NCBI RefSeq assembly: GCF_000177635.2
Contig: NC_014836.1
Location: 1,500,001-1,564,000, forward strand
Direction of reading: 5' to 3'
Length of the DNA stretch: 64,000 nt
Source: Desulfurispirillum indicum S5
Lineage (GTDB): Bacteria > Chrysiogenota > Chrysiogenetes > Chrysiogenales > Chrysiogenaceae
Position 1 is the stretch's first letter. Each line of letters begins with the position of its first letter. Made by a program: the position numbers and the translations under genes. This document shows positions 6,237 to 20,511 of this stretch, piece by piece. The notes beneath the pieces were generated by a model, which saw nothing but the letters and a program-made list of their open reading frames with translations, did no database searches and was not told the origin of the DNA.

Positions 6237-8321
6237 TTACTCTCTCTTTTCTTCAAGTCCGACGGTGCCGAGGGCTTCAATATTCACACTGTCAGCAAGT
6301 TCGGTATGTGCCAGAATAACAAGCTTGGGCGCATAACGCATCACCAGGCGTTTCAGTGGCGCGCGCACTACGGGGGAAACCATGAGCACCGGCGTGACCC
6401 CCTGTTCGCTGATCCGGTCAGCGGTGTGAATGAGATTTACCAGGAAACGCTGTGCCTTGTGGGGCTCCATCACCACCACACGCCCTTGATCGGATTTCTG
6501 GATAGACTCGGAGATCATCTGTTCCAGGTGCGGATCGAGTGTCAGAACCCGTATGGTATTGGTTTCATCAGCATACATCTTGGTAATCTGGCGACTGAGT
6601 CGCCCGCGCACATAGTCCGTGAGGATATCCGGATCCTTGGTGGCAGCAGCGTAATCACCAAGGGTCTCAAGTATTGTCAGCATATTACGGATGGATATAC
6701 GTTCACTCAGAAGATTCTGCAGCACATGCTGTACCGCTCCCAGGGGAAGCTGACCCGGAACCAGATCACCCACCACACTGGGATGGGATTTCTGAATATT
6801 ATCAAGCAGGCTCTGGGTTTCCTGCTTGCCGAGAATATCCTTGGAGTGCTGCTTGATCAGTTCGCCAATATGGGTGGAAATGACCGTACCAGCATCGACA
6901 ACCGTATAGCCAAGCATCTCTGCTTCATCACTGTAATTATCCGTAACCCACATCGCTTTCAGGCCAAAAGCCGGCTCGACCGTCGGCGTCCCGGGCAGGG
7001 TGATATCGTCGCCAACCGGGTTCATGGCAAGAAGCTGACCAGGATAGACATCACCGGAGCCCACCTCAATCCCCTTGACTTTGAAGACATAGTCGTTGGG
7101 CTTGAGCTGCAGATTGTCCCGAATGCGAATGGGCGGCACAATAAAGCCTAACTCCAGTGCAATATTCTTGCGCAGGGACTTGATGCGGTTCAGCAGGTCA
7201 CCACCCTGGGAACTGTCCACCAAAGGGATGACGCCATATCCCACTTCGAGCTCCAGGGAATCCATCTGAAGAAGTTCTTCCACCTCTTCCTCATGGGACT
7301 TCGGAGCTTCCTCCTGGACACTCCCACTGTCGGATTCAGACGCACCCAGGCCCTCTTCAAGAATCTTGCCTATCTTCCCTGTTTGAATGAAGTACGCCAG
7401 TGTCGCCAGTAAAGCTGCCAGAGTCATAAAGGGGATAAAGGGCATGCCGGGAATAATGCCGAAGATGAAGAGGATCACGCTGGCAACCCAGATGACTTTC
7501 GGGCTCACGATAAACTGCTGGGCGATGTCCTCACCAAGGTTTGACTCACTGGCCGCACGGGTCACCACGATACCCACCGCGGTAGAGACAATCAGTGCCG
7601 GTATCTGACTCACCAGGCCGTCACCGATGGTCAACAGCGTATAGACCTGGGCCGCCTCGCTGAAGCCCATGCCCCCCTGGGCCATGCCAATGATCAATCC
7701 ACCCACGATATTGATGATCGTGATAATAATCCCGGCAACGGCGTCACCCTTCACAAACTTGGAAGCACCATCCATGGCGCCATGGAAGTCCGCTTCACGG
7801 CGAATATGCTCACGCCGTACTTTTGCTTCCTTGTCGTCAATGAAGCCGGCATTCAGATCAGCATCAATGGCCATCTGCTTGCCGGGCATGGCGTCAAGGG
7901 TAAAGCGCGCAGCAACTTCAGCCACGCGACTGGCACCATTGGTGATAACCTTGAAATTAATGATGACAAGAATAATGAAGACAATGATACCGACCACGTA
8001 GTTCCCGCCCACGACAAACTGGCCGAAAGCCTGGATCACCTGGCCAGCGGCTGCTTCGCCCTCATGGCCATGCAGCAGGATTGTCCTCGTGGTTGCAACG
8101 TTCAGGGAAAGTCGAAAGAGTGTGACAATCAGGAGTACCGAAGGAAATATGGAGAAATCCAGCGGCTCACGAATATAGAGTGAAACCAGGATAACCAGGA
8201 CACCCAAAGTTATACTGATCGTGAGCAGAATATCCAGCAGCGGAGCCGGAACAGGAAGCACCATTATGGCAATAACCGATAAAATACCAAAAGCTGCTAT
8301 TATATCAGGACTTGTAGACAT
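6237..8321 (-). CDS. flhA: Flagellar export gate protein FlhA
   Basis: About 694 residues when started at the ATG at 8321 (MSTSPDIIAAFG). A longer GTG frame to 8381 adds a charged leader with no convincing SD. The N-terminal half carries about eight transmembrane segments and the FHIPEP-family signature region (RRADFHGAMDGASKFVKGDA-like, read here as RREADFHGAMDGASKFVKGD). The C-terminal half (about 350-694) is the cytoplasmic nonameric ring domain that binds export chaperones. FlhA and FlhB form the gate of the flagellar type III secretion system in the inner membrane. It lies between flhB and flhF. Confidence 0.96.
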   Translation of the reverse strand: MSTSPDIIAAFGILSVIAIMVLPVPAPLLDILLTISITLGVLVILVSLYIREPLDFSIFPSVLLIVTLFRLSLNVATTRTILLHGHEGEAAAGQVIQAFGQFVVGGNYVVGIIVFIILVIINFKVITNGASRVAEVAARFTLDAMPGKQMAIDADLNAGFIDDKEAKVRREHIRREADFHGAMDGASKFVKGDAVAGIIITIINIVGGLIIGMAQGGMGFSEAAQVYTLLTIGDGLVSQIPALIVSTAVGIVVTRAASESNLGEDIAQQFIVSPKVIWVASVILFIFGIIPGMPFIPFMTLAALLATLAYFIQTGKIGKILEEGLGASESDSGSVQEEAPKSHEEEVEELLQMDSLELEVGYGVIPLVDSSQGGDLLNRIKSLRKNIALELGFIVPPIRIRDNLQLKPNDYVFKVKGIEVGSGDVYPGQLLAMNPVGDDITLPGTPTVEPAFGLKAMWVTDNYSDEAEMLGYTVVDAGTVISTHIGELIKQHSKDILGKQETQSLLDNIQKSHPSVVGDLVPGQLPLGAVQHVLQNLLSERISIRNMLTILETLGDYAAATKDPDILTDYVRGRLSRQITKMYADETNTIRVLTLDPHLEQMISESIQKSDQGRVVVMEPHKAQRFLVNLIHTADRISEQGVTPVLMVSPVVRAPLKRLVMRYAPKLVILAHTELADSVNIEALGTVGLEEKRE

Positions 8322-8431
8322 TCTGATCGCTTTGCCGGCAGTGAATCCAGGAGCTTTTGGCGCCAAGTGTTTGCTCCTCACGGGAAGGATATTGAAAGGC
8401 TTGGCAAAAGCCTTTATCCGAAAAATAATAC

Positions 8432-9496
8432 CTATATTTTTCCTTTTTGTCTATAAATCTCAGCCAGGATTTCCGCCACCGCCTGGTAGAGTTCATGGGT
8501 AATCTCATCGCCTGGTTCAAGGGAGTCGTACAACTGTCGAGCCAGCAGGGGATCCTGTTGAATGGGAATATCATGTTCAAGGGCCAGATCCCGTATACGC
8601 TGAGCCACCAGTTCCTGTCCTTTTGCAACAAGATAGGGGGCGGCCTTGACCTCAGTATCGTATTTGAGCGCCACCGCCAGGAACAGGGGGTTGGTGATGA
8701 CAACATCCGACTTGGGCACATCGCCCATCATGCGCTTCATGGCCATCTCCCTCTGCAGGGAGCGTATACGCTGCTTGACTTCGGGATTTCCATCCATCTG
8801 CTTGCGTTCTTCCTTTACCTCCTGTTTACTCATCTTGAGTTTTTCATGGTGCTGGTACTTCTGAAAGTAAAAATCCACCGCCGAAACTATCAGCATAATG
8901 AGAATAATGGTGATCCAGATCTTAAAAATAATCATGAGCGCTGTGGCAAAAATCTCTATGGGGGTCAGATGCATCATCATTAAAATTGAGCCAAACTCAT
9001 CCTTGGCAATAAAATACGCCACTGGACCAAAGACCGAGACCTTCAGCAGACTTTTTGTGACCTCTATGAGGTTTTTCAGAGAAAACTTCTGAGCTATCCC
9101 CTTGATAGGGTTGAGTTTGGACCATTTTGGCGCAACCGCTTTGCTCGACCACAGCAGACCGATCTGCCCAATATTGATTGCCAGCGCAAAGAGAGTGAGG
9201 GCAAGGAAGAGGGGCCAGAGAATATGTAGCATCTGCAGCAGAATGGTAATGCCGAAGGAGGGCATTTCATTAATAGTCGGAAAGGTGTTGCGCGTCAGAT
9301 CGAGATAATTGCGCATAATGGCAAAAAAACCCTCTAACATACGCTCGTGGAGAAAATACAAAGTCATGACTCCGGCAAAGAGAACCGCCGTGTCACTCAT
9401 ATCCTTGCTTTTGGCAACGTTCCCCTCTTCCCTGGCTTTCTCAAGCTTTTTCGGGGTCGGTTCCTCGGTTTTCTCCTGATCTGATTCGGGAGGCAT
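8432..9496 (-). CDS. flhB: Flagellar export switch protein FlhB with altered NPTH motif (NPLF)
   Basis: 354 residues. The N-terminus EKTEEPTPKKLEKAREEGNV is the classic FlhB/YscU start. Four membrane spans (about 36-55, 86-110, 145-165, 185-210) are followed by the cytoplasmic FlhBC domain. In the family, FlhB self-cleaves between Asn and Pro of a conserved NPTH motif, and this drives the switch from rod/hook to filament export. Here residues 269-272 read NPLF (codons 8692-8681), while the flanks DVVIT and AVALKYD are normal. Thr and His are therefore both replaced although Asn-Pro remains. Self-cleavage may be lost or slowed. A separate protein equivalent to the cleaved C-terminal fragment is encoded at 20125-20511. 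Confidence 0.96.
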   Translation of the reverse strand: MPPESDQEKTEEPTPKKLEKAREEGNVAKSKDMSDTAVLFAGVMTLYFLHERMLEGFFAIMRNYLDLTRNTFPTINEMPSFGITILLQMLHILWPLFLALTLFALAINIGQIGLLWSSKAVAPKWSKLNPIKGIAQKFSLKNLIEVTKSLLKVSVFGPVAYFIAKDEFGSILMMMHLTPIEIFATALMIIFKIWITIILIMLIVSAVDFYFQKYQHHEKLKMSKQEVKEERKQMDGNPEVKQRIRSLQREMAMKRMMGDVPKSDVVITNPLFLAVALKYDTEVKAAPYLVAKGQELVAQRIRDLALEHDIPIQQDPLLARQLYDSLEPGDEITHELYQAVAEILAEIYRQKGKI

Positions 9497-9524: not shown

Positions 9525-10319
9525 TTATGCGGCAAATATCCGCAGAATAATAAAGATATTGCGATAAAATTGGGAGAAAATACCCTCCAGCACCACCCGC
9601 AATGCCGGAATAACCAGTGCCAGCGTCAGCAGACCAAAAAATATCTGCACCGGCAGACCAACGGTGAGCAGGTTAATCTGGGGCACCATTTTCCCGAGTA
9701 TGCCGTTAATGGACTGTGAGATGAGAACAACCACAAATACAGGCCCGGTAATCTTGAAGCCAACATAGAATATCGTCGCGGCGAGTTCAATCACCAATTG
9801 GGCAAATCCACCCAGGTTCCCGAAGCTGAGCATACCTAAGGGGATGAGGGTGTAACTCTCATACAGCCCCATAAACACATAGTGGTGCCCATTGGCCAGC
9901 AGGAAGAGCAGTACCACAAAAATAGTCAGAAACTGACCAATAATAGGAACCTGTATATTGGTCATGGGATCAAGGACGTTGGACATGCTCAGCCCCACCT
10001 GAAAACCCATGATCTGACCGGCAAACTGAATGATGCCCAAAATGATCTGACCAGCAAAACCAATGGCCAGGCCAATGAATATCTCCTTGAAGATCACGAT
10101 CATGAGTTCAAAGATATTCGGCGGAATAACAGCACCATGGGCTGAAACCATGGGAAAGAGCAGGGCGCTGACCAGCAGACTCAGGCCGATCTTCACCTGC
10201 ATTTTGACCTGTTCTCCGCCGAGAACCGGCATACTTACCACAATGGAGAGGGTGCGAATGAATGAGAGGATAAACGTATTGATTTCCTGCAGATTCAAGA
10301 GTGCGGGATCAAAGGGCAT
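9525..10319 (-). CDS. fliR: Flagellar biosynthesis protein FliR
   Basis: 264 residues, strongly hydrophobic with about six membrane spans. It has the FliR-family pattern, including the FAGQIMGFQVGLSMSNVLDP segment typical of FliR/SpaR/YscT. FliR builds the export gate core with FliP and FliQ in the inner membrane. It follows fliQ after 11 nt and precedes flhB, matching the usual fliPQR-flhB order. Confidence 0.95.
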   Translation of the reverse strand: MPFDPALLNLQEINTFILSFIRTLSIVVSMPVLGGEQVKMQVKIGLSLLVSALLFPMVSAHGAVIPPNIFELMIVIFKEIFIGLAIGFAGQIILGIIQFAGQIMGFQVGLSMSNVLDPMTNIQVPIIGQFLTIFVVLLFLLANGHHYVFMGLYESYTLIPLGMLSFGNLGGFAQLVIELAATIFYVGFKITGPVFVVVLISQSINGILGKMVPQINLLTVGLPVQIFFGLLTLALVIPALRVVLEGIFSQFYRNIFIILRIFAA

Positions 10320-20124: not shown

Positions 20125-20511
20125 CTACCAATCATTTTTCAAGGCATTTTGTTTATAAAGAAAGGCCAATACTTCTGCAACGGCCTGATACAGTTCCTCG
20201 GGAATCTCCTGGTCAATTTCCAGCGCGCTCAGTGCCACGACCAGATCCGGGTCTTCATGAATCGCCACCCCATGCTCGCGGGCCTTATCAATAATGGCCT
20301 CGGCAACATGCCCCTGCCCTTTGGCACTGACAAGGGGCGCACGGCTCTTGTCCTGATACTTCAGGGCAACGGCTTTTTTCCACCTGGTATCGGAATCCTT
20401 CTGCAGGGCACCCTCCGAGTATGTGGACTCAATGCACGTCAGCGACTTCGGAGCAGGGTTACTCGACGACGAGTTTACTGAAATCCGCCACCCCGGAGAA
20501 AAGCTGTCCAA
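20125..20511 (-). CDS. Orphan FlhB C-terminal-domain protein (FhlB/FlhX-like)
   Basis: The conserved part (about 85 residues, KKAVALKYQDKSRAPLVSAKG to YQAVAEVLAFLYKQN) aligns by eye with the portion of FlhB after the NP cleavage site. It includes the GxxxVAxxIIxxAxxHGVxxxED pattern. There are no membrane spans. Small proteins of this type (FhlB, FlhX) occur beside full FlhB in several flagellates and can replace the cleaved C-terminal fragment. The start is uncertain. TTG at 20511 would overlap glyS by 53 nt. A CTG at 20406 with GGAGG five nt upstream would give 93 residues, the usual family size. It is particularly relevant because FlhB here has NPLF instead of NPTH. Confidence 0.82.
   Translation of the reverse strand: MDSFSPGWRISVNSSSSNPAPKSLTCIESTYSEGALQKDSDTRWKKAVALKYQDKSRAPLVSAKGQGHVAEAIIDKAREHGVAIHEDPDLVVALSALEIDQEIPEELYQAVAEVLAFLYKQNALKNDW

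Follow-up and report, generated by a model that had tools for sequence, protein, structure and literature searches.

FlhB of Desulfurispirillum indicum S5 carries the tetrapeptide NPLF at the self-cleavage site, where NPTH is usual. This protein is probably an ordinary, functional flagellar FlhB, in which the Asn269-Pro270 bond is still cleaved autocatalytically and the export switch is conventional. The gene lies in a window of 64,000 nucleotides (the whole stretch of DNA that was analysed; contig NC_014836.1, positions 1,500,001 to 1,564,000). The original prediction reported that both assisting residues, Thr and His, are lost from an otherwise intact gene, and proposed that export specificity is switched without normal cleavage or by another route. 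The substitution and the intactness of the gene were borne out by our analysis, which also showed the trait to be conserved within the family, whereas the proposed switch without cleavage is unsupported rather than refuted. The features of the window to which we refer are as follows.

6237..8381, minus strand: flhA, directly downstream of flhB (PF00771, 923 bits)
8432..9496, minus strand: flhB, encoding a full-length FlhB/YscU-family export-gate protein of 354 aa (PF01312, 409 bits)
8498..8500, minus strand: Thr333 of FlhB, another residue at which the family departs from the usual sequence (Pro in 98% of the FlhB sample)
8681..8692, minus strand: N269-P270-L271-F272, where NPTH is usual (codons AAC CCC CTG TTC at 8692-8681)
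8681..8686, minus strand: L271-F272 in the Thr-His position, both hydrophobic throughout the Chrysiogenaceae (family alignment)
8687..8692, minus strand: Asn269-Pro270, the scissile pair of the FlhB family, kept (N and P each 176/176 in an unselected FlhB sample)
9525..10319, minus strand: fliR, directly upstream of flhB in the export-gate cluster (PF01311, 204 bits)
20125..20406, minus strand: FlhX-like gene, whose product is a paralogue of the part of FlhB that follows the motif, the C-terminal subdomain (PF01312 positions 262-334, 78 bits)

The motif is embedded in the context SDVVIT-NPLF-LAVALKYD, inside an intact 354-aa open reading frame (9496-8432, minus strand). In a profile search, the protein matches the Pfam family PF01312 (FlhB/HrpN/YscU/SpaS) over profile positions 1-334 of 335. 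The presence of fliR and flhA on either side, in an intact cluster, confirms the flagellar export-gate position of the gene. Compared with canonical NPTH FlhBs (Salmonella, Aquifex; PF01312), the D. indicum protein has the same domain architecture, the same fliR-flhB-flhA synteny and the same turn between two strands, and its Asn269-Pro270 pair even has the same residue numbers as in Salmonella FlhB. It differs in that Thr271 is replaced by Leu, His272 by Phe and Pro333 by Thr, and residue 273 is Leu, where most FlhBs have Tyr or Phe. All three Chrysiogenaceae genomes encode Thr or Ser at residue 333, which is a near-invariant Pro elsewhere. We also considered that a second, canonical FlhB might be encoded elsewhere, and rejected this candidate: the complete D. 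indicum genome (a single contig of 2,928,377 bp) contains no second full-length FlhB, and the sole other match is the short FlhX-like paralogue.

An AlphaFold model of the protein (mean pLDDT 83, and about 92 close to the motif) has the C-terminal fold of the FlhB family, with a strand at residues 265-269, a turn at 270-272 that contains the altered half of the motif, and a strand at 273-278. The model agrees with Shewanella FlhB-C to within 0.7-1.8 Å, and the solved structures that it matches best are cytoplasmic domains, those of FlhB, EscU and YscU.

The original prediction had suggested aligning FlhB from close relatives, and this comparison, among 60 relatives searched, revealed NPLF and NPIF in the other two Chrysiogenaceae genomes (FlhB 81% and 68% identical, respectively), with the same flanks. 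The motif codons differ in each case: AAC CCC CTG TTC in D. indicum, AAC CCA CTC TTT in the other NPLF gene and AAC CCG ATT TTT in the NPIF gene. Since dS among the three flhB genes is saturated, we set dN/dS aside, and the comparison rests on these codon differences. That three members of the family reach NPLF or NPIF through different synonymous codons shows that NP[LI]F is a fixed, old trait common to the Chrysiogenaceae, and neither an error nor a sign of decay. In a tree calculated without the motif columns, the three proteins form one clade (support 100) beside lineages with NPTH or NPIH. The neighbouring lineages have NPTH, except for three FlhBs with NPIH (L006, L020, L022), in which Thr is lost and His is kept. 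These sister sequences show that a change from Thr to Ile occurs with His retained, a step that may have come first in the Chrysiogenaceae lineage.

To describe the constraint on the motif more generally, we used an unselected sample of 176 FlhBs, found through homology over the whole protein in four phylum-level samples and one order-level sample, and read the motif from the alignment. (The order-level sample, around an NPVE lineage, contributed few genomes.) Asn and Pro are each present in 176 of the 176 proteins, Thr in 163 and His in 166. The variants include NPVE (4 proteins), NPIH (3), NPLF (2) and NPQH (2), as well as NPIF, NPTT, NPTR, NPTQ and NPPH. Both Thr and His are absent from seven of the 176, and all seven keep N-P. 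Thus, only the N-P half of the motif is invariant in the sampled FlhBs, and the Thr-His half is not. This pattern differs from the published statement that NPTH is conserved in all homologues (PMC4875606) and extends the NP(T/E)H form of the motif that is already in print (PMC7771051). D. indicum FlhB falls outside the NP(T/E)H subgroup by its Leu271 and Phe272 at motif positions 3 and 4.

Proteins without Thr and His recur beyond the Chrysiogenaceae. We scanned about 85,000 species with a pattern for the FlhB motif context that required N-P, a hydrophobic position 3 and a codon other than His at position 4, so that the proteins retrieved are informative at position 4 and in the flanks only. 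The scan returned 25 stretches, 23 of which are FlhBs by homology, with the motifs NPVE, NPIE, NPLE, NPME, NPIR, NPVF, NPIY and NPVK. As these 23 were preselected, only the seven Thr-His-less FlhBs of the unselected sample are independent evidence on the retention of N-P. According to their record titles, the scan-derived sequences come from Actinomycetota, Planctomycetota, Armatimonadetes, Chloroflexia, KSB1, Glassbacteria, UBP15, Deltaproteobacteria and others, mostly as metagenome assemblies. The full-length FlhBs with the motif NP[V/I/L/M][E/F/R/K/Y] (L038-L062, L176, L187, L189, L252) resemble the D. indicum protein in having lost Thr and His but kept N-P, and usually have Leu, Ile or Val at residue 273. 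They differ from it in belonging to other phyla, mainly as metagenome assemblies, and in having mostly Glu at residue 272, where D. indicum has Phe. Glu predominates at residue 272 of the Thr-His-less FlhBs, with Phe, Arg, Lys or Tyr in the others; given this chemical mixture, no single side chain takes over the part of a catalytic base from His. Residue 273 is Leu, Ile or Val in 20 of 25 non-redundant Thr-His-less FlhBs, compared with 40 of 160 NPTH FlhBs (Fisher p = 2e-7, uncorrected for relatedness). When the presence of Thr-His is mapped onto the FlhB tree, parsimony requires nine changes, at least three of which are forced by strongly supported branches, with the direction of loss or gain not distinguishable.

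Thr-His is thus missing from several separate lineages whose flagellar systems are otherwise intact, including a cultured organism described as motile. In the open-access literature that we searched, we found no published description of FlhBs that lack both residues. Such proteins amount to natural experiments on the contribution of Thr-His, be it to the cleavage rate, to the orientation of the loop after cleavage, or to the binding of FliK or substrates, and they make the string NPTH unsafe as a test of annotation or function. One genome (G071) encodes two FlhBs, with NPTH and NPME (L091, L097), which would permit a direct comparison inside one cell. Separately, the flhB gene of another locus (L203; G055:C5:290500-292200), with the motif NPTH, consists of two open reading frames, one for the membrane part and one for the C-terminal domain, which is probably a frameshift due to error or decay.

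Experiments on homologues bear on the role of each motif residue. The crystals of the EscU mutants T264A (3bzv) and H265A (3bzx) contain a separate 83-residue chain that begins at the Pro (PAHIA... and PTAIA..., respectively), and both mutants are therefore cleaved. In contrast, EscU N262A, N262D and P263A were deposited as single 137-aa chains, though a cleaved chain is present as well in 3c03, an entry for P263A. As in D. indicum, a Thr or His side chain is removed in T264A and H265A and Asn-Pro is kept, but these are single Ala mutants of an injectisome homologue, whereas the D. indicum change is double, and our search found structures and cleavage data for single mutants but none for a protein without both residues. 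Similarly, T266A and H267A affect cleavage of Xanthomonas HrcU only slightly, and N264A abolishes it (PMC3040844). Both of the former mutants complement only partially in planta, so Thr and His must matter for something. The NPEH FlhBs of Shewanella putrefaciens (6z0w) and Vibrio mimicus (6s3l) are natural motif changes that keep N-P, as in D. indicum, but they retain His272 and only Thr is altered, whereas D. indicum has lost both. Wild-type Shewanella FlhB is cleaved, and its N269A mutant forms no filaments (PMC7771051); in Salmonella, the N269A protein is uncleaved and locked in the hook state (PMC3708937). It is mutation of Asn or Pro that blocks cleavage or slows it severely, and D. indicum FlhB keeps both.

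The other components of the switch are present in the Chrysiogenaceae. All three genomes encode a FliK with a good Flg_hook domain (in D. indicum, PF02120 at 60.4 bits, G000:C1:1649024-1649254) and several flagellins, and D. indicum has been described as motile (PMC3368425). The D. indicum genome has six Flagellin_N matches (G000:C1:1365865, 1471164, 1474039, 1694400, 2403510 and 2159831), which lie in open frames of 850-880 codons, and in one case 1517; judged by these extents, the flagellins may be unusually large. We also considered a matched change at the FlhB-FliK interface. The FliK C-terminal tails in the Chrysiogenaceae are LDITV, LDVTI and LNLIA, compared with LYA/IYA in NPTH relatives, but NPTH genomes of other phyla have tails that end INLLV, LDYTA and ISVIA, and we rejected this candidate.

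Thr and His vary, whereas the essential Asn and the important Pro are present in every case. Retained cleavage is therefore the most economical reading, and we infer that the NPLF protein most likely cleaves and that the switch proceeds normally. Cyclisation of Asn269 would cut the Asn269-Pro270 bond autocatalytically and separate FlhB-CN from FlhB-CC, which would allow FliK to trigger the change from hook to filament export. In place of Thr-His, the motif has a hydrophobic pair, Leu/Ile-Phe, with Leu273 behind it. On this mechanism, Thr and His would be residues that tune the rate or the loop conformation, rather than essential catalysts, so their identity could drift while N-P is kept. The altered loop may then change the rate of cleavage or the surface exposed after it.

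An alternative is that NPLF FlhB is uncleaved, or cleaved far too slowly, and that a change of conformation, rather than cleavage, switches specificity in the Chrysiogenaceae. In favour of this view, Thr and His are both lost, the near-invariant Pro333 is also changed in all three genomes, and the single Thr and His mutants of HrcU partly lose function. However, dispensable cleavage should have left N and P free to change, whereas both are invariant; cleavage is thus likely retained, even though the pair could be kept through a structural role in the turn. Moreover, cleavage persists in homologues that carry a single Thr or His mutation, and in an NPEH FlhB, and the loss of filaments or the hook-locked state caused by N269A is at odds with the reported motility of D. 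indicum. We therefore regard this alternative as unlikely. A different possibility is that selection on FlhB cleavage is relaxed because a C-terminal subdomain is available ready-made, in trans, from the FlhX-like protein (about 20406-20125). FlhX is homologous to the FlhB subdomain after the cleavage site, without the membrane part or the motif, and is encoded elsewhere; the Helicobacter pylori homologue HP1575 can serve as a spare part. All three Chrysiogenaceae encode FlhX-like proteins, and these, that of D. indicum among them, keep the ‘EIP’ Pro at the place that matches FlhB residue 333, where FlhB has lost it. In Xanthomonas, the C-terminal part of HrcU works when expressed in trans (PMC3040844). 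Nonetheless, most NPTH relatives also encode FlhX-like proteins, none was detected, at the sensitivity used, in 11 of the 22 genomes with scan-derived Thr-His-less FlhBs (mostly incomplete metagenome assemblies), and N-P is kept. With no association between FlhX and the loss of Thr-His, we rejected compensation by FlhX as a general explanation, and consider relaxed selection of this kind in the Chrysiogenaceae very unlikely. More broadly, it seems rather unlikely that the Chrysiogenaceae, perhaps with other Thr-His-less lineages, switch without cleavage or with strongly delayed cleavage, whether by a conformational or an FlhX-like route. Gene decay at the motif, or an error of sequencing, can practically be dismissed, as NP[LI]F is found in three separately sequenced genera, with different codons in each, and the D. 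indicum gene is an intact, full-length, single-copy reading frame in an intact cluster.

The FlhX-like gene of D. indicum overlaps the 3′ end of glyS or sits just behind it. No fitting ATG, GTG or TTG start was found for it, and a CTG at 20406 lies five bases behind GGAGG (GGAGGG), so this CTG is a possible start. In six other genomes, an open reading frame with a Flg_hook (FliK) domain precedes the FlhX-like gene on the same strand, at a distance of up to about 350 bases (G061:C55, G063:C60, G067:C19, G071:C29, G074:C36 and G080:C68), which suggests a two-gene module of FliK-like and FlhX-like proteins apart from the main switch in those genomes.
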